This document shows, one piece after another, positions 1 to 23,788 of a stretch of DNA of 47,638 nucleotides (position 1 is its first letter; every line of letters starts with the position of its first letter). The notes below the pieces were generated by a model. The model saw only the letters and a list, made by a program, of their open reading frames with translations, was not told where the DNA came from and made no database searches. The DNA is from a virus: positions 1-47,638 of the IMG/VR virus record IMGVR_UViG_3300048833_000710; one strand, written 5' to 3'. The position numbers and the translations under genes were made by a program.

Positions 1-867
1 TCATCTGTCATCTCTAGGAAAATCCAAAAAGCATCCCTCGAAGGCCGAGAACGGGACCTTCAGCACTTCCCAAATACCGGCGCCTTCGTCCTTGGGCACG
101 TGGACTTTCATCTGATCGATAGTCAACACCGCAAGTTGAGGGCCGGCTGAAGCCAAGGTCCAAAGGTGAAACTGATGGGCCATGGAAGCCAATGCAGTCT
201 CCCACTCATTCCGGCTTAGGTGAAATGAAGCAAAGTCAGGGCCTCGCTCGCTCGTCTTTACTTCGATCGTCATGCGACGCGTATCCGTCTGCGAGACGCG
301 GGAAAGCACATCATATCCATCAGATGAACTTTCGAGCGCAATCCATTTAGGCACCACGCCCGTCCGGAGCCGCTCGTATTGAAGCGTCATACGCTCACCG
401 CGCCGCCCGATATCAAGAAGAACGCCGTCGCGAAGTCCTCGCGCACGTGCTGCCAGCCCATCCCAGAACTGAACAGTTTCCTCGTCTTCACCGTAAGCGA
501 GGCCGGCTTCAACAAACACCTGCCGAATGCTGGCAGGGGCCTGGAGTAACGTCTCCCGGCGGCCGTAAGGAATCAGCTGAAGCCATGGGGGCTGCTCGAT
601 CTCGATAAAGTCGATCAGCATGGTCCGGAGTCCTGCTTGGGGACCTGCAGCACTAGAAGCGCGTTCACCACGAACGGTAACGGCAAGGAGGCCATCAGGC
701 TGCACTTCGATCCAAGACAGATCGAGGCATGTTCGATAGATGGCAGATGAAGCAACTGAGCCCAGTGATAGGGAATGCACTCCACCAGGCGTCAACTGGT
801 TACGTTTGACGACTTCAAGAAGCTCGATACAGCCGAAGGCGATCCCAGGAGACAGAGGTTGCACCAC
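1..867 (-). CDS. DUF3883/NO VEIN-type nuclease-like protein, last gene of the defence-like operon
   Basis: This 288-residue protein is probably the nuclease or DNA-end-processing subunit of the cluster. The C-terminal third (about 175-288) looks like the DUF3883/NO VEIN fold. It has GYD at 184-186, the E-x-K core IEVK at 201-204, then the FHLSRNEWE stretch typical of that family, which fits a PD-(D/E)XK nuclease core. The first 170 residues are not recognised. The GTG start at 867 overlaps the TAG stop of the SNF2 gene by one base, so translation is coupled. The stop codon is the first three bases of the window. The nuclease role is inferred from fold and context; only the motif is seen. Confidence 0.72.
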   Translation of the reverse strand: MVQPLSPGIAFGCIELLEVVKRNQLTPGGVHSLSLGSVASSAIYRTCLDLSWIEVQPDGLLAVTVRGERASSAAGPQAGLRTMLIDFIEIEQPPWLQLIPYGRRETLLQAPASIRQVFVEAGLAYGEDEETVQFWDGLAARARGLRDGVLLDIGRRGERMTLQYERLRTGVVPKWIALESSSDGYDVLSRVSQTDTRRMTIEVKTSERGPDFASFHLSRNEWETALASMAHQFHLWTLASAGPQLAVLTIDQMKVHVPKDEGAGIWEVLKVPFSAFEGCFLDFPRDDR

Positions 868-2675
868 TAACCTCCGAGGGCCGCAAGCAGTGCTCGAACG
901 TCGCCCTCGTCGAGCCCACCAGCTCCATAACCCTCGTCCTCGTCGTCAGGCACGATCGGAACCGGAGAGATTTTCAACCCGGAGTCGTTCAACGCCGCGG
1001 CCATTTGCCCGACCTTAAACTCCAATCGCTGACGAACAGATTCGTCCACACTTCCAGCACATTCCACGATCTCGATGGTGGTATCTTGGTCTGGTGACAG
1101 ACCGAGGCGGTGAATACGATCTTCGGATTGAAGGTATTGGGCGGCGTTATAATTTCGGTCAAGATAGATGGCGTGGTGGCAAACCGTATGTAGGCTGATC
1201 CCCTCTCCTGCAGCTGCGGGGTTCGCAACCATGACCATCACATTAGGATCGTCGTGGAACAAGCGAATCTTCCCTTCTCGGGTCTCGTCGTCATTCTCGT
1301 CACCGGCGTCGACGCCGCCATGTATGTAGACCGCGCCTAGGTCTTGAAGACTGGTCGCGATGTGCTCAACGTTCTCGACAAAGGTTGACCAAATGAGAAC
1401 CTTTTTTCCTTCACGGGCAAGGCTTCGGGTTCTTTGCAGCACGTAGCGAAGTTTTGGGCCGCGTCCTTCTGCTAAGGCCATTGAAAGCTCATTGGAGTGC
1501 GCGAACGCGATGTCGTGCGCCAAGAGGGCCGGGTTTGACACGAACTGTAGAACTCGGGTTACGGACCGGCCCAATCCCCGAAATGCCTGCTTGCTCTTGA
1601 TTGTCAGTGCCTGTGCCGCTTCGCGAGCCAAAGCGCTCTTCATTAACTCGTATAGCCGATGTTGGAGTGGGTCCATCGGAAGCGTCTTCAATATCCGGGT
1701 GACCGGTGGCAGGTTCAGTTCACTCTTGTTGGTCCTGACATAAACTGGGCTGATAAGGTCAACGACCGTATCCTCATTTGCTTGAACTTCTGGATAAAGG
1801 AACCGGAACTGGGGTAAAAGGTCGCTGGTAGATTGCGGCATGGGAGTCCCGCTCATCACGAGCTTACTGGCGGGCAAGTGAGAGAAGCTGAGCACCGCAT
1901 CCGTCGAAATGTTATTCTGCCCCTTAATTCGATGGCTTTCGTCAAGGAAGACATGAACACGGCGACCAACAAGATGGTTTGCAATGACTTCCTTCACGCG
2001 TGCCAGCTGCTGATAGCCGATGATCATTAACTTTGGATCCGCAAGCAGCTGGAGCGGTATCTTGTCCGTCTTACGAAGCCGGACGAATTGCTGGCCGAAT
2101 GTCGGTAAGCATGTTGCTATTTGCTCGTCCCAGGCCGCAAAAGCGTTCTTCGGTGCGATAACCAACAACCGGTCGCCTGGTTCAGCGCGCAGCGTAAACG
2201 TTGCAAGGGCCTCTGTAGTCTTCCCCGCGCCCGGGACGGAAAACGTGGCGCCCGCAGGCAAGGGCGCCAATTTCGACACGTTCCTCAGTTGTTGATCCGT
2301 CAGACTTCGGGCGAACTTAGCCAATTGAAGTCGCTTGGTCACCTCGTCCGCAGTTAGTTGGCTTGCACCCGCCGCCGTGGCGTAGCCTTCGTCCCTTGAT
2401 CGGGCAAGGCGCAGATGTGCCCCAGCCCTTTCGGAAACCTGGTAGTCGACACCAGAAGCCAGCTGGAACCCTCGAATGAGATCAAAGATAGTCGGCCGCA
2501 GTCCAAGGAAAGACCACCACGGGAGCGAGACTGTATTCCCTCCCTCTTGGGATGACTCTTTCGAACCAGATAGTAGCACATCCCTTGCTATGCTCAGCCA
2601 CGGCGTGGCCTCATCGCTAGGAAGCCAAGAAACTACTGCCCTGCGGTCAACGCCTCGGTAATCAAAAACGAGCAA
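867..2675 (-). CDS. SNF2-family DNA-dependent ATPase/helicase
   Basis: This 602-residue protein has the SNF2 order of motifs: Walker A with PGAGKT near 148-153, motif II DESH near 245-248, motif III around MSGTP, and the C-terminal lobe ending with QSEDRIHRLG, the SNF2 motif VI signature. SNF2 proteins translocate on double-stranded DNA. In restriction and DISARM-like systems they feed a nuclease or remodel invading DNA. About 120 N-terminal residues precede the motor and are not recognised; they may contact a partner. The start is TTG at 2675, one base after the ParB-like gene's stop, so it is probably translated by re-initiation. Family assignment is firm; the defence role is inference. Confidence 0.88.
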   Translation of the reverse strand: MLVFDYRGVDRRAVVSWLPSDEATPWLSIARDVLLSGSKESSQEGGNTVSLPWWSFLGLRPTIFDLIRGFQLASGVDYQVSERAGAHLRLARSRDEGYATAAGASQLTADEVTKRLQLAKFARSLTDQQLRNVSKLAPLPAGATFSVPGAGKTTEALATFTLRAEPGDRLLVIAPKNAFAAWDEQIATCLPTFGQQFVRLRKTDKIPLQLLADPKLMIIGYQQLARVKEVIANHLVGRRVHVFLDESHRIKGQNNISTDAVLSFSHLPASKLVMSGTPMPQSTSDLLPQFRFLYPEVQANEDTVVDLISPVYVRTNKSELNLPPVTRILKTLPMDPLQHRLYELMKSALAREAAQALTIKSKQAFRGLGRSVTRVLQFVSNPALLAHDIAFAHSNELSMALAEGRGPKLRYVLQRTRSLAREGKKVLIWSTFVENVEHIATSLQDLGAVYIHGGVDAGDENDDETREGKIRLFHDDPNVMVMVANPAAAGEGISLHTVCHHAIYLDRNYNAAQYLQSEDRIHRLGLSPDQDTTIEIVECAGSVDESVRQRLEFKVGQMAAALNDSGLKISPVPIVPDDEDEGYGAGGLDEGDVRALLAALGG

Positions 2676-2676
2676 C

Positions 2677-4014
2677 TTAACCCCGCTTGCTGGTCACCCA
2701 GGCCTCGATTGCGTCTAGGTTGTCGCGTATGCCCTTGATTTGCATCTCAACCCCCTGGATTGAGCTTTCCGATCTGAGTCCGTGCGCCGTGACGTTCTGA
2801 ACTAGCGAATTCACTTTTTTAAGGGTCTTCAAAAGATAATCTGCCTGCTTTAGTTCCTCTTTCTGGTCATCCTGCGCGCGGATTGTCTCAAGGACAGTTT
2901 CGCGTGCTTTCCGGATTGAGCTTTCATCCTTTTTGATCTCGGCCACCAATGCGAGATCGGAATCTGGGTTCTTGGTGTTGGTTGCTGGGCCGCCAAACAA
3001 GTCTTGGGCGTCTTTGTCGGGTTCGGCAACTTTCACCGGGAACGCTTGAACCAGATCGTTTTTGATTTTGGTGAGATGCTCTTTGACCTTAGGAATCACC
3101 GCATAAAGGCGCTCTCCAACCTCTGCCGGATCGTCGATCAGTGCAAAACTTGCCTGCTTTACAAGTTCCCGGTCACTAGCCGAGCCTATGTTGACGAGCG
3201 TCTTGTAGAGCGTGCTGAACGCATACTTATCTTCGCGGACCAATGACCATGTGTTCTCCTTGCTGCGAGAGCGGAGATAATCCGCTGCTAATTCACGCAT
3301 GCCAAGGAGCTCATCGATCTCAGATTTCTTCTTGCCGTAAAGCCGAGCAATCTCTTGGGTTGAAAAGCCGTGAAGCCGCTGCTTTTGCAGAATCATATTG
3401 GCCTCAGCGTCCCAGGTGTAGTCGCTTCGGATGTCTCGATCGATCTGGAGCCGGGCTTCGAGACGGTCAAGTTCCTGATCATTGCAGTGCGGCAAGATCA
3501 CAACGTCAACATGCCCGAAGTGCGAGTACTTTGTTTGATCAGATAAATATAGTTCGCGCCAACAGCAAAGGCGCCTGTTGCCGTTCAAAGCGAACCCGTT
3601 TTCGTCCAATAGCAAGGGTTCTACCTGCCTCTGAACGGGGTCCTTGAACTTCTCCAGCAGACCTTCCTCCTTGATCATAGACCTGAGGATGTCGTGCTGC
3701 GCGATCTGAATTATTTCAAGCTCAGGGTCACCGGCATCGAAAAAGTCGATCGGCTCACCGTGTGTCGAAACCCATTCCTGCTGGGCGCTCGCCGTACGGC
3801 CGTTCGCGATGCGATACTTCGACAGATTGATCGGGATACGCACGATCGGTAGTGAAATCATGGAACCCTTAAAGTTTTCGACACGGAACGTATCTCCGCT
3901 AGCCGCTGAAACGAGCTTCTTGAACTCTTCCCGGCGGTCAGGAAGTGGCCACCCGTAGGGCGACTGGCGAGGCGGCGGCGGTATACGGTTCACATCGTTC
4001 AAAACTGACCTCAT
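2677..4014 (-). CDS. ParB/sulfiredoxin-fold (ParB N-terminal-like) protein
   Basis: In this 445-residue protein, residues 55-80 (NLSKYRIANGRT) and 130-155 (EPLLLDENGFALNGNRRL) match the ParB N-terminal/sulfiredoxin-like fold, whose GNRR motif binds a nucleotide in ParB proteins. A helix-turn-helix-like stretch around 210-240 (FSTQEIARLYGKKKSEIDELL) follows. The C-terminal 100 residues are charged, helical and probably coiled coil. There is no ParA partner nearby, so plasmid partition is unlikely. With an SNF2 motor and a methyltransferase next door, a clamp or NTP-switch role in DNA recognition is more likely. The start ATG overlaps the preceding gene's stop by 4 bases. Confidence 0.75.
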   Translation of the reverse strand: MRSVLNDVNRIPPPPRQSPYGWPLPDRREEFKKLVSAASGDTFRVENFKGSMISLPIVRIPINLSKYRIANGRTASAQQEWVSTHGEPIDFFDAGDPELEIIQIAQHDILRSMIKEEGLLEKFKDPVQRQVEPLLLDENGFALNGNRRLCCWRELYLSDQTKYSHFGHVDVVILPHCNDQELDRLEARLQIDRDIRSDYTWDAEANMILQKQRLHGFSTQEIARLYGKKKSEIDELLGMRELAADYLRSRSKENTWSLVREDKYAFSTLYKTLVNIGSASDRELVKQASFALIDDPAEVGERLYAVIPKVKEHLTKIKNDLVQAFPVKVAEPDKDAQDLFGGPATNTKNPDSDLALVAEIKKDESSIRKARETVLETIRAQDDQKEELKQADYLLKTLKKVNSLVQNVTAHGLRSESSIQGVEMQIKGIRDNLDAIEAWVTSKRG

Positions 4015-20223: not shown

Positions 20224-20593
20224 CCGCATCTGGACGGCCGACTGCGTCGCCGATCATTTCGAGGAAGCGTTCCGCACCCTGCGCAAGCTGCCACCGGTAA
20301 AGGCGCAGGGGTTCTTCAACGCCTGGCCGCAGATCGTGCGCACCAGTCGCGAGATCGCGGCGATGGAACCCGAGCCCATGCGGGTCTGGCCATCGGCCGC
20401 CGCCATCACCCGGCTGGAGCAGACCTCGGACTGGGTGCTGTGGATCGAGGAGGCCGAACGCAAGCTCGTGTGGTCGCGTGCGGCCCGGGTGCCATGGAAG
20501 CAGATCAGCGGTGAGCTGGGCTGCGACCGCACCACCGCGTGGCGGCGCTGGCAGCTGGCGCTGACCAAGATCGCGGCGCGACTGAATGCGTGA
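20216..20593 (+). CDS. DUF6362 helix-turn-helix protein
   Basis: This 125-residue protein carries WIEEAERKLVWSRAARVPWKQISGELGCDRTTAWRRWQLAL near 75-115, a helix-turn-helix (VPWKQISGELGCDRTTAWRRW) characteristic of DUF6362. It may be a regulator or a DNA-binding accessory. AAGGAGG sits 7 bases before the ATG at 20216 and decides the start against an earlier in-frame Met. It is the last gene before a terminator. Confidence 0.75.
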   Translation: MADRIWTADCVADHFEEAFRTLRKLPPVKAQGFFNAWPQIVRTSREIAAMEPEPMRVWPSAAAITRLEQTSDWVLWIEEAERKLVWSRAARVPWKQISGELGCDRTTAWRRWQLALTKIAARLNA

Positions 20594-20665
20594 GCGACTC
20601 CAATGTGTTGCAACACTTTTCTCTTCGACATCTGCAACATGTTCGTGCTATTCCGAAGGCAAGAT

Positions 20666-20706
20666 GGGGAGAGTGCGCCGAAGGGTTCGCTCTCCCCTTT
20701 GCTTTT
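20666..20706 (+). terminator. intrinsic terminator after the replication block
   Basis: GGGGAGAG (20666-20673) pairs with CTCTCCCC (20690-20697), with two more possible pairs inside. It is followed directly by TTTGCTTTT. Good stem and T-rich tail make this the clearest terminator in the window. It closes the replication/recombination transcript. A perfect GTGTTGCAACAC palindrome lies about 60 bases upstream of it. Confidence 0.75.
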
Positions 20707-20736
20707 GGGCGGATACGGCTGGATTTCGGATTGGTT

Positions 20737-20986
20737 TCCGGGGTCCGGGCGGGGTCCAATCGGCATCCATCTCGCTAACCCACTGATTTCTGGTTCCTTC
20801 CTGGCAACATTCGTATGCTGGCGGGCGAAGCGCGGCACATCGCTAGCGACAGGGCCGGGTTTTTGGGAAGCCAGCCGGAAGCCACCGCTGCCTGAACCCG
20901 CCTGAAACACCGCAAAATCAAACCCTTGAAGCTGGACACCCCCGGTGGCCGCTGGACCCCGCGTGGAGTCCAGTCCGGACCCCGGA
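20737..20986. repeat. 250-base gene-free segment bounded by inverted GGGGTCC/GGACCCC pairs
   Basis: No supported gene lies between 20594 and 21033. The segment is bounded on the left by TCCGGGGTCCGG then GCGGGGTCC (20737-20757). On the right it is bounded by their reverse complements GGACCCCGC (20954-20962) and CCGGACCCCGGA (20975-20986). The inner 200 bases contain no convincing frame. It could fold into one large structured RNA or be an inserted small element. It ends about 50 bases before the methyltransferase start. Confidence 0.45.
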
Positions 20987-21033
20987 TTCCGGAAGCCAAG
21001 GGCATCCATCCTGACCCGAGGAATGACCCGACG

Positions 21034-22383
21034 ATGACGCTGAGTTTTGCCCCGGATCGGATCGAGATGTGGCCGCTGGCCAAGCTCCAGCCCTATGCCC
21101 GCAATGCCAAGGCGCATGGCGCGGACCAGGTTGCGAAGATCGCCGCCAGCATGGCCGAGTTCGGTTGGACCGTGCCGTGCCTCGTGGCCGAGGATGGTGA
21201 GCTGATCGCGGGGCATGGCCGGGTGTTGGCGGCAACGCAGCTCGGGTTGACCGAGGGACCGGTGATCGTGCTGGGCCACCTGACCGAGGCGCAGCGCCGG
21301 GCATATCGGATCGCCGACAATAAACTGACTGAACTCGGCACCTGGGACGAGGCGCTGCTCTCGGCGGAATTGAACGATCTGTTGGCCGAGGATTTCGACC
21401 TGTCGCTTGTCGGTTTCTCCGACGGCGAGTTGGACAAGCTGTTGTCCTTCGTGCCGGAGGGGGACTGGCAAGAAGGTGGCACCGGGGGCTCGGTGCCTCC
21501 GGTGACCATCCCCGAACCACCGCGCAATCCGGCCTCGCGCACCGGCGACCTGTGGATTCTTGGCGACCACCGGCTCCTTTGCGGTGACAGCACCAGCGCC
21601 ACCGACGTGCGCCGTCTGATGAATGGCGAGCGGGCAATCCTGTTCGCGACTGACCCGCCGTATCTGGTGGATTACGACGGTTCCAACCATCCGACCCGCA
21701 ACAAGGACTGGTCGGCATCCTACGGCACGACCTGGGACGACAGTTCGCAGGGGGCCGAGCTTTACGATGGTTTCATCGAGGCCGCCGTGGCGGAGGCCAT
21801 CGCCGAAAACGCCGCCTGGTATTGCTGGCACGCGTCCCGCCGCCAGGCGATGTTGGAAGCCTGCTGGGAAAAGGCCGGGGCCTTCGTGCATCAGCAGATC
21901 ATCTGGGTGAAGGACCGCGGGGTTCTGACCCGCTCGCACTACCTCTGGAAACACGAACCTTGCTTCATGGGCTGGCGCCGCCCGAACCGGCCGCCGAAGG
22001 TGGCCGAGGAAACGCTGCCATCGACATGGGCGCTGCCGAGCTTCGCAAAAGACGAGCGGCCCGACCACCCGACACCGAAACCGCTCGATGCCTTCGGAAT
22101 TCCCATGCGCCAGCATGTGGCGCGGGGCGGGCTTTGCTATGAACCCTTCTCGGGCTCCGGCTCGCAGATCATGGCGGGCGAGGCAAACGGCCGCCGCGTC
22201 TTCGCGATGGAGATCAGCCCGGCCTATGTCGATGTCGCCGTGGAACGCTGGCAGGCCGAGACCGGCCGCGAGGCGATCCTCGACGGCGATGGCCGGACCT
22301 TTGCGCAAATCAGAACCGAGCGGCTTGGCGCTGACGTCGACGTCGAGTCCGAACCCACCGCTCCTTTGATCCCCGCCGCGTGA
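21034..22383 (+). CDS. ParB-domain N6-adenine-type DNA methyltransferase
   Basis: In this 449-residue protein, the N-terminal 120 residues are ParB/sulfiredoxin-like (LQPYARNAKAHGADQVAKIAASM; ELIAGHGRVLAA; AYRIADNKL). The rest is a beta-class amino-methyltransferase with TDPPYLVDY as motif IV near 205-213 and YEPFSGSGSQIMAGE as motif I near 370. DPPY suggests adenine N6 methylation. Fused ParB-methyltransferases are common phage proteins, thought to protect phage DNA from host restriction. The ATG at 21034 is preceded by GAGGAA at a long spacing; the frame stays open upstream to 20926 without conserved sequence. Confidence 0.88.
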   Translation: MTLSFAPDRIEMWPLAKLQPYARNAKAHGADQVAKIAASMAEFGWTVPCLVAEDGELIAGHGRVLAATQLGLTEGPVIVLGHLTEAQRRAYRIADNKLTELGTWDEALLSAELNDLLAEDFDLSLVGFSDGELDKLLSFVPEGDWQEGGTGGSVPPVTIPEPPRNPASRTGDLWILGDHRLLCGDSTSATDVRRLMNGERAILFATDPPYLVDYDGSNHPTRNKDWSASYGTTWDDSSQGAELYDGFIEAAVAEAIAENAAWYCWHASRRQAMLEACWEKAGAFVHQQIIWVKDRGVLTRSHYLWKHEPCFMGWRRPNRPPKVAEETLPSTWALPSFAKDERPDHPTPKPLDAFGIPMRQHVARGGLCYEPFSGSGSQIMAGEANGRRVFAMEISPAYVDVAVERWQAETGREAILDGDGRTFAQIRTERLGADVDVESEPTAPLIPAA

Positions 22384-22387
22384 GGCC

Positions 22388-23569
22388 ATGCATGACCTGG
22401 TTGTACCTTCCAACGGACGCGCTTCCGGAACCGGAAACGTGTGCCTTTTCGGCCTCTCCCTCTGCTCTGGCGCAGGCGGTCTCGACCTCGGGCTCGCCAT
22501 CGCCATCCCCGGATATCGTGCTGTGGGCCATGTCGAACGGGAAACCTTCGCCGCAGCCACTCTCGTGGCGCGGATGGAAGATGCGTCCCTGGATCAGGCT
22601 GTTGTCTGGGACGACGTTGGAACCTTCGACGGCCGCCCGTGGCGCGGCGCGGTGGATATCGTCAGTGCGGGCTATCCGTGCCAGCCGTTCTCGGTCGCAG
22701 GCCGACGGCTCGGCAGCGAGGATCCACGCCATCTCTGGCCGCATGTCGCCCGCATCATTGGCGAGGTCGAGCCGCCTTTCGTCTTCCTCGAGAATGTCGC
22801 CCATCATCTCCGCCTCGGCTTCCCCGAAGTCGCCAGCGGACTGGTCGGCATGGGCTACCGCCTTGCGGCAGGCCTCTTCACATCGGCGGAAGTCGGTGCG
22901 CCCCACCGGCGCGAACGTCTGTTCATCCTTGCCATCCGCGAGGGGGACGAGTTGGCCGACCCCGCGCGCCTGCTCTGGAACCCGGTCGAGTGGCGGGAAC
23001 CGGACGGAATTGCTGCGGCTCTGGCCGACGCCCCGTGCCAGTGCGAACGAGAACCGGCAGACGAAACCGACACCGTCGCAGGAAGCGGGGCAGCACGGGA
23101 TGAACCTCGCGACAACGGCAGCGCTCTGGCCGACACCGCAGATCGACAGTTTCCGCAGCCGGGGTGGCGAGCGGAAAGAGGAGAAGGGTCTGGACCGGAT
23201 GGCGCGGGACTGGCCGACTCCGATGGCGAACGACGGCTGCAAGCCGAGCGCGGGCAATCGGCGTACGGCCGACCTGACCCATGCGGCGGGAATGTGGATG
23301 ACCCCGACGACGCGGGATCACAAGGATGGGGCGACAACCTTAGCGAACACGCCGGTGAACGGCCTGCTTGGCCGCCAGGTCCTGGTGACGCCGATGGTTG
23401 GGAGCGATACCTCCGATGCGCGCCGGACCTTGAACCCGCTGTTCGTCGAGGCGCTGATGGGTTGGCCCACCGGGTGGACCGGCTTCGGCTCTGTGGCAAC
23501 GGCGTGGTCCCACTGGTTGCAGCGCATGCGCTCAGAACTTTGGCAGCTGAATTGCTGGCCGATGGATGA
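22388..23569 (+). CDS. DNA (cytosine-5-)-methyltransferase
   Basis: All C5 motifs are present in this 393-residue protein: I (LCSGAGGLDLG, 26-35), IV with the catalytic Cys (GYPCQPFSVAG, 95-105), VI (ENV, 135-137), VIII (HRRERLF, 173-179), and IX-X near the end (RLCGNGVVPLVAAHALRTL). The variable region 188-340 is Asp/Gly-rich with repeated LAD units (LADP, LADA, LADT, LADS). It should methylate cytosine at a short site to protect phage DNA. It lies 4 bases after the adenine-type enzyme and stops 9 bases before the DUF7220 start. Another open frame covers the whole gene and is listed separately. Confidence 0.92.
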   Translation: MHDLVVPSNGRASGTGNVCLFGLSLCSGAGGLDLGLAIAIPGYRAVGHVERETFAAATLVARMEDASLDQAVVWDDVGTFDGRPWRGAVDIVSAGYPCQPFSVAGRRLGSEDPRHLWPHVARIIGEVEPPFVFLENVAHHLRLGFPEVASGLVGMGYRLAAGLFTSAEVGAPHRRERLFILAIREGDELADPARLLWNPVEWREPDGIAAALADAPCQCEREPADETDTVAGSGAARDEPRDNGSALADTADRQFPQPGWRAERGEGSGPDGAGLADSDGERRLQAERGQSAYGRPDPCGGNVDDPDDAGSQGWGDNLSEHAGERPAWPPGPGDADGWERYLRCAPDLEPAVRRGADGLAHRVDRLRLCGNGVVPLVAAHALRTLAAELLADG

Positions 23570-23582
23570 GGTTGCGGCATGA
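22392..23582 (+). CDS. overlapping alternative-frame protein of the MTWLYLP/WPTP type
   Basis: This is a second open frame across the whole cytosine methyltransferase gene (396 residues from ATG 22392; a GTG at 22380 would overlap the previous stop as GTGA). It reads MTWLYLPTDALPEPE, PLSWRGWKMRPWIRLLSGTT, LEPSTAARGAARWISSVRA. Five repeats (WPTP, WPTP, WPTP, WPTP, WMTP) follow, and NPLFVEALMGWPTGWT comes near the end. From memory this is the layout of phage proteins usually annotated on their own as hypothetical. Its TGA overlaps the DUF7220 start by 4 bases, unlike the methyltransferase stop. Coding is supported by pattern and coupling but unproven, since GC-rich shadows can be long. Confidence 0.5.
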   Translation: MTWLYLPTDALPEPETCAFSASPSALAQAVSTSGSPSPSPDIVLWAMSNGKPSPQPLSWRGWKMRPWIRLLSGTTLEPSTAARGAARWISSVRAIRASRSRSQADGSAARIHAISGRMSPASLARSSRLSSSSRMSPIISASASPKSPADWSAWATALRQASSHRRKSVRPTGANVCSSLPSARGTSWPTPRACSGTRSSGGNRTELLRLWPTPRASANENRQTKPTPSQEAGQHGMNLATTAALWPTPQIDSFRSRGGERKEEKGLDRMARDWPTPMANDGCKPSAGNRRTADLTHAAGMWMTPTTRDHKDGATTLANTPVNGLLGRQVLVTPMVGSDTSDARRTLNPLFVEALMGWPTGWTGFGSVATAWSHWLQRMRSELWQLNCWPMDEVAA

Positions 23583-23788
23583 AGCAGTCACGCGCCATGT
23601 CGCTGGTCGAGTCGATCGCCAATGTAATCGTCGGCTACGGCGTCGCGGTGGCAACGCAGATCCTGATCTTCCCGGTCTTCGGGCTGCACACGACGCTCGC
23701 TCAGAACCTGAAGATGGGCGCGGTGTTCACCGTGGTCAGCATCGCGCGATCCTACGTTCTGCGGCGGCTGTTCGAAAGGTTCCATTGA
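23579..23788 (+). CDS. DUF7220 small membrane protein
   Basis: This 69-residue protein has two hydrophobic segments (IVGYGVAVATQILIFPVFG; NLKMGAVFTVVSIARSYVL) and a basic C-terminus (RRLFERFH), so it is probably an inner-membrane hairpin protein. It matches the DUF7220 pattern of alphaproteobacterial phages. The function is unknown; superinfection exclusion is one possibility. Its ATG overlaps the stop of the alternative frame at 23582. Confidence 0.78.
   Translation: MKQSRAMSLVESIANVIVGYGVAVATQILIFPVFGLHTTLAQNLKMGAVFTVVSIARSYVLRRLFERFH

Follow-up and report, generated by a model that had tools for sequence, protein, structure and literature searches.

Overlapping reading frames at a phage C5-cytosine methyltransferase locus: catalytic motifs in one frame, a putative target region with motif IX in the other

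The 47,638-nucleotide viral sequence IMGVR_UViG_3300048833_000710, taken over its whole length and termed here the window, contains a C5-cytosine methyltransferase (MTase) gene that is overlapped along its full length by a second open reading frame (ORF) in the +1 frame. The MTase frame (alpha) and the second frame (beta) probably encode one phage 5-methylcytosine (m5C) DNA methyltransferase composed of two polypeptides, as judged from comparative sequence analysis. On balance, and with somewhat less assurance, we also favour a broader proposal: a large, widespread class of phage and prophage C5 enzymes would be obligately dual-coded, with the specificity half lying over the catalytic half in the +1 frame and translated together with it from tandem starts, so that specificity evolves in a different frame from catalysis.

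Results

Two open frames over the same DNA

The features of the locus, all on the plus strand, are as follows.

22388..23569, plus strand: MTase frame (alpha), 393 amino acids, ATG start; C5-cytosine methyltransferase with motifs I-VIII and X, without motif IX.
22392..23582, plus strand: second frame (+1, beta), conserved ATG; putative PTP-unit target region and motif IX; matches phrog_1008 and phrog_27243.
22388..22394, plus strand: tandem start ATGCATG (MTase ATG at 22388, beta ATG at 22392, offset 4 nucleotides).
22454..22957, plus strand: catalytic core, motifs I-VIII, MTase frame; in most of codons 19-186 wobble falls at MTase position 3.
22953..23378, plus strand: putative target region holding five [WM]-x-TP units, encoded in the second frame, its MTase-frame shadow being LAD-rich; assigned because wobble in codons 193-330 falls at MTase position 1 (beta position 3) and because an in-frame actinophage region is homologous.
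23430..23480, plus strand: putative motif IX (LNPLFVEALMGWPTGWT), second frame; assigned from the L242/M.HhaI alignment (weak alone) and pattern counts in the collected loci.
23480..23566, plus strand: motif X (RLRLCGNGVVPLVAAHALRTLAAELL), MTase frame; wobble at MTase position 3 and pattern counts.
22380..22383, plus strand: GTGA, in which an in-frame second-frame GTG overlaps the stop of the upstream gene (20926-22383).
23579..23582, plus strand: ATGA, in which the second-frame stop overlaps the next ORF (23579-23788).

The MTase frame matched PF00145 (E=1.4e-29, residues 23-189), with the match ending at profile position 167, and phrog_363 (E=5e-55, residues 23-385). SLCSGAGG, PCQPF, FLENV, APHRRER and GNGVVP were read directly. 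Motifs I, IV, VI, VIII and X of a C5-cytosine DNA methyltransferase (PF00145) are present in this frame; motif IX and a target region in the same polypeptide are not. A previous inspection of the letters without database searches (the sequence-only reading) had placed a C5 methyltransferase ORF with all its motifs here. The ORF lies where it was placed; motif IX is not in it.

The same inspection had described the second frame as open over this DNA, and no stop occurs in it from GTG 22380 (an alternative possible start) or ATG 22392 to 23582. MTase codon positions 1, 2 and 3 correspond to second-frame positions 3, 1 and 2. The second frame matched phrog_1008 (E=1e-16) and phrog_27243 (E=7e-14), and had no match among Pfam and NCBIfam models. 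Two PHROG profiles were divided between the frames. In phrog_1008 the second frame covered positions 40-203 and the MTase frame positions 294-319 (the latter match weak); in phrog_10223 the second frame covered positions 33-58 and the MTase frame positions 64-100 (both weak). The orderly division of both profiles suggests a single domain series spread over two frames.

The second frame has a predicted target region and motif IX

Pattern searches covered 351 complete overlapping loci. Motif IX was in the second frame at 330 of them and at no locus in the MTase frame; motif X was in the MTase frame at 339 loci and in the second frame at 8. Certain actinophages (e.g. IrishSherpFalk) have PTP units and LNPAFPEWMMGWPTGW in frame between motif VIII and motif X, and the second-frame family aligned to this in-frame segment (hhalign 97.1%, E=5.7e-11). 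A short single-ORF relative, L242, covered positions 1-313 of the 324 in the PF00145 profile; its KLNAKFVEYMMGLPEGW aligned with KLHPRECARVMGYPDSY of M.HhaI and was followed by motif X. This HMMER segment is weak alone, and its position and spacing fit motif IX. Because of the actinophage homology, the L242/M.HhaI alignment and the motif counts, we assign the target-recognition region and motif IX to the second frame, and motifs I-VIII and X to the MTase frame, as a sequence-based prediction. A gene overprinted de novo was considered and rejected, since the C-terminal part of beta is homologous to in-frame segments of actinophage methyltransferases.

The sequence-only reading had taken each WPTP unit for the shifted reading of an LAD unit of the methyltransferase. 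The same DNA is indeed read in two frames, but the direction is reversed: the second frame is selected between motifs VIII and X and matches the in-frame actinophage segment, so the LAD repeats are the shadow of WPTP. The number of TP units per second-frame target region ranged from 0 to 7, and this variation could reflect modular or multiple target specificities.

Selection changes frame along the gene

Codon-position divergence was measured in relatives of the window (119 loci before identical proteins were removed), giving 5,062 pairs with 80-97% nucleotide identity. Divergence peaked at MTase position 3 in codons 21-180 and 361-380, and at MTase position 1 in codons 201-320. When the gene was scanned in 6-codon steps, the first six codons (second-frame CMTWLY) followed the second frame, most of codons 19-186 followed the MTase frame, codons 193-330 followed the second frame, and the MTase frame was followed again from codon 361.

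The ratio of divergence at codon position 3 to that at position 1 (p3/p1) was calculated in five sets of overlapping loci. For the core in the MTase frame it was 2.9, 3.6, 1.5, 2.4 and 1.9; for the target region in the second frame it was 3.1, 3.6, 3.6, 2.4 and 2.1. The ratios were computed on the second-frame alignment because alignment of the target region in the MTase frame fails in divergent lineages. In single-ORF actinophages, p3/p1 was 2.0 (core) and 3.2 (target region), both in the same frame. These comparisons indicate that both frames are constrained and that the dominance of selection alternates along the gene.

Divergence at four-fold sites was 0.185 for the core and 0.204 for the target region as read in the second frame, relative to 0.367 for the upstream gene (same pairs, similar amino-acid identity). 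Judged at these sites against one control gene, both frames appear to be constrained throughout. The upstream ORF used as the synonymous-rate control (20926-22383) has ParB-like and DNA-methylase-like sequence.

Both frames are open beyond chance

In the window alone, shuffling of codons synonymous in the MTase frame gave a mean of 1.23 second-frame stops (P(0)=0.15), and the openness of the second frame is not unusual by this measure. Shuffles synonymous in the second frame gave a mean of 7.2 MTase-frame stops, and P(0) was printed as 0.000 of 5000; for the MTase frame, then, openness is unusual even in the window alone. Twelve lineages found through the MTase frame, at most 60% alike in the core, were tested similarly, using the length of the open stretch found and not a fixed region. 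Over the core, 0.8-5.4 second-frame stops were expected and 0 observed; over the target region, 1.4-8.4 MTase-frame stops were expected and 0 observed (Fisher P 4e-10 and 2e-15, respectively). Chance openness in DNA rich in guanine and cytosine (GC), which the window alone would allow, was rejected by the low-GC lineages and the codon positions. The dual coding proposed in the sequence-only reading is thus supported by the codon-position divergence, the open frames beyond chance and the constraint at four-fold sites, all of them comparative lines of evidence.

The overlap is widespread

Searches by tblastn with the second frame found phages of Synechococcus, Komagataeibacter, Klebsiella, Salmonella and Lacticaseibacillus and phage C75C1; the same +1 arrangement was read in all of these and in Acidovorax phage Alfacinha3. 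Relatives were gathered in four ways: with the second frame, with the MTase frame of low-GC phages, with the actinophage enzyme, and with the MTase frame in bacterial genomes. Six-frame ORFs of 413 loci were then scanned with two hidden Markov models (HMMs), one for the MTase core and one for the target region of the second frame. The census gave 355 +1 overlaps, 28 single ORFs, 20 loci with the core only, 6 with the target region only, 2 with another offset and 2 that were non-overlapping. All except two of the 28 single ORFs came from the actinophage-enzyme set, where they made up 26 of 30 loci.

The overlap is conserved also at 37-50% GC and across distant phages. Gene 58 of the laboratory phage N15 (L419, 604-1599) and an E. 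coli prophage (L414, 1379-2281) have the same overlap, each with LNPxHSRWLMGxPxEW in the second frame. In an unrooted tree of cores (37 rows, 170 columns), the actinophage single ORFs formed one group among the overlapping ones.

Proteins of the WPTP layout had been described in the sequence-only reading as listed alone in many phages, and a stand-alone phage family derived from an alternative MTase frame had been offered as one explanation. The census contradicts the first statement and does not support the second, with 355 of 413 loci overlapping at +1 and only 6 having the second frame alone. An open MTase core was kept in the overlapping frame at 79 of 80 loci fetched by a nested second frame, and the second frame was present at all 80 genome loci fetched by the MTase frame. 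The second frame is 'listed alone' because annotators choose one frame: when seven phage records with the overlap were inspected, the second frame was the sole annotation in three and the MTase frame in the other four. Essentially no stand-alone second-frame genes were found among the 413 loci by second-frame searches followed by the core and target HMMs. The 6 target-only loci are mostly contig edges or broken copies (L063, L084 and L088 were inspected). In these three the catalytic part is replaced or deleted and the second-frame target region is left; in L088 an apparent deletion reaches from the upstream gene into the target region.

Start codons

The second-frame start is ATG in 172 of the 175 relatives with a recognisable start peptide (MTWLY). 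In about 160 of the 175, an MTase-frame start codon lies 4 bases upstream of the beta ATG and is usually ATG (ATGnATG); in others the two starts overlap as ATGTG. In the window, GAGG at 22382-22385 ends 6 bases before the second-frame ATG. The GTGA and ATGA overlaps of the second frame with its neighbours, pointed out in the sequence-only reading, are real; yet it is ATG 22392 that relatives conserve as the start. Nested relatives have a second frame that begins inside the core, and the N-terminal parts of the second frame in nested lineages resemble an MTase shadow.

Other arrangements and neighbouring frames

A different phage C5 type was seen in up to 14 metagenome contigs (L203-L216, of which only L210, ~2470-3900, was read fully). 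The core ORF ends after motif VIII (...SPILLEQ*), and a target/IX/X-like part follows in the -1 frame, the two overlapping briefly; a split gene and a -1 frameshift are both candidates for this arrangement. Runs of 8 G occur in the target region of L180 (~3221) and L189 (~3219). Indels that differ between the two displace both frames at once there; candidate causes are sequencing error, phase variation and slippage. The window, which is high in GC, holds many long spurious ORFs. An antisense ORF of 768 codons over the upstream gene (20254-22560, minus strand) is probably a GC-rich shadow.

Discussion

We propose the following scheme. Alpha would provide catalytic motifs I-VIII and motif X, connected by the LAD-rich linker, and beta the target-recognition region (PTP units) and motif IX. 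Ribosomes loading at one site could start at either ATG of ATGCATG and so produce both subunits from one message. Alpha and beta would associate, restoring the usual large and small domains; beta would recognise the target, and the enzyme would modify phage DNA, most likely as protection against restriction.

Natural C5 enzymes of two polypeptides provide precedents. The small ORF of M.EcoHK31I is nested out of frame inside the large one, and both products are needed in vitro. M.AquI and M.EcoHK31I are both two-polypeptide enzymes, and M.EcoHK31I has motifs I-VIII and X in the large polypeptide and IX in the small one (PMC3404938); the enzyme has also been described as split by nature (PMC3439449). 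N- and C-terminal fragments of M.SssI, M.HhaI, M.BspRI and M.BsuRI complement each other in E. coli (PMC3404938; PMC3439449). The phage locus shares the M.EcoHK31I (YGGCCR) motif distribution at the sequence level, by comparison with the published description, and may be regarded as a variant of this natural two-polypeptide design. However, a review places the predicted target domain of M.EcoHK31I in the large subunit (PMC3404938), whereas here the VIII-IX region is selected in the small-subunit frame; the full-length overlap, the tandem ATGnATG start and the PTP units are features of the phage locus. M.AquI likewise separates a catalytic part from a target/IX part (PMC3404938), but its beta also has motif X, which here stays with the core. 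A nearer match to M.AquI is provided by the actinophage splits L245, L248 and L252, in which the core ORF ends early and an overlapping ORF holds the target region, IX and X; L249 is a further actinophage relative of this kind, with the change near motif VIII.

The actinophage single-ORF C5 enzymes (IrishSherpFalk gp71, L008/L224) have the same core, LPTP units and LNPAFPEWMMGWPTGW as motif IX; unlike the overlapping loci they use one frame for all, with the other frames closed and wobble at one codon position throughout. The ShiLan element also has a second frame inside a phage methylase gene, an out-of-frame HNH endonuclease (PMC11855218). That element is a mobile HNH insertion, whereas the second frame here has no HNH family match and is a predicted part of the enzyme.

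Several observations weigh against the two-polypeptide proposal. An AlphaFold2 model of the second-frame protein (71 sequences) had a mean predicted local distance difference test (pLDDT) score of 53, with the PTP region and most of the N-terminal half at low confidence; only residues near 141-170 and 341-390 (motif IX and the next helix) were confident. In the single-chain actinophage enzyme, pLDDT was likewise near 28 over the PTP region; the core and C-terminal IX/X part were confident, and Foldseek with this model found M.HhaI, M.HaeIII and DNMT1. The PTP region is accordingly assigned as the putative target region by position, homology and selection, not by fold. The reduced synonymous divergence has a single control gene, perhaps with a different history. 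The Shine-Dalgarno signal at the internal starts of nested relatives is weak, and controls gave artefact values. At both junctions (codons 189-196 and 349-371) almost every codon position is conserved, as a frameshift signal would also produce.

This last point belongs to the main rival, which we consider unlikely. Here two programmed frameshifts would yield a single full-length methyltransferase, the first a +1 shift after motif VIII and ahead of the target region, the second a return to the MTase frame between IX and X. Selection changes frame at those two places, the first junction contains GAC CCC G, and the actinophage homologues are single chains. The model needs two opposite shifts, however, and leaves the second frame's own conserved ATG and start peptide unexplained. 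Nor does it require the observed avoidance of second-frame stops in the core, or the open and constrained state of the MTase frame in the target region. The junctions are accounted for by residues conserved in both frames, and M.EcoHK31I is made of two polypeptides.

Alternatively, both proteins may be made and beta may be no subunit; it might, for instance, regulate or antagonise alpha, or bind DNA independently. Many lineages have beta at full length, it starts at a codon of its own, and no domain is known in its N-terminal half (no Pfam/NCBIfam match). We nevertheless give this explanation only a slim chance: beta holds the predicted motif IX and target region that alpha is without, homologous to segments of the single-chain enzyme, and beta without alpha was essentially not found. 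A last reading, highly improbable, takes the second frame for a shadow cast by a conserved GC-rich methyltransferase gene, either untranslated or without function. Taken alone, the high-GC window makes an open second frame unsurprising, as the shuffles and the many spurious ORFs indicate, but the overlap is kept at 37-50% GC and across distant phages, and the shift of wobble to the second frame over the target region contradicts a shadow unless it is an alignment artefact.

The sequence-only reading knew of no description of such an arrangement. Our search of the open-licence literature, which was not exhaustive, likewise found no description of the overlap in this methyltransferase family. 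The two-polypeptide precedents M.EcoHK31I and M.AquI do exist, however, and the same overlapping pair is annotated as two genes in K1G (gp34/gp35), Bloom (Bloom_56/57) and Shelly (Shelly_55/56, 'g55 internal gene'), although these records state neither the function, nor the motif split, nor its generality. The generality, the start architecture and the target-region assignment appear to be new.

If the proposal is true, many phage methyltransferase records show half an enzyme, and the annotated ORF expressed alone should be inactive or non-specific. Proteins now listed as hypothetical or as 'DNA methyltransferase' would be the missing specificity subunit, and M.EcoHK31I would become an example of a widespread design and not an oddity. 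The locus would then be a clear example from nature of long overlapping genes whose functions are segregated, selection switching frames domain by domain.

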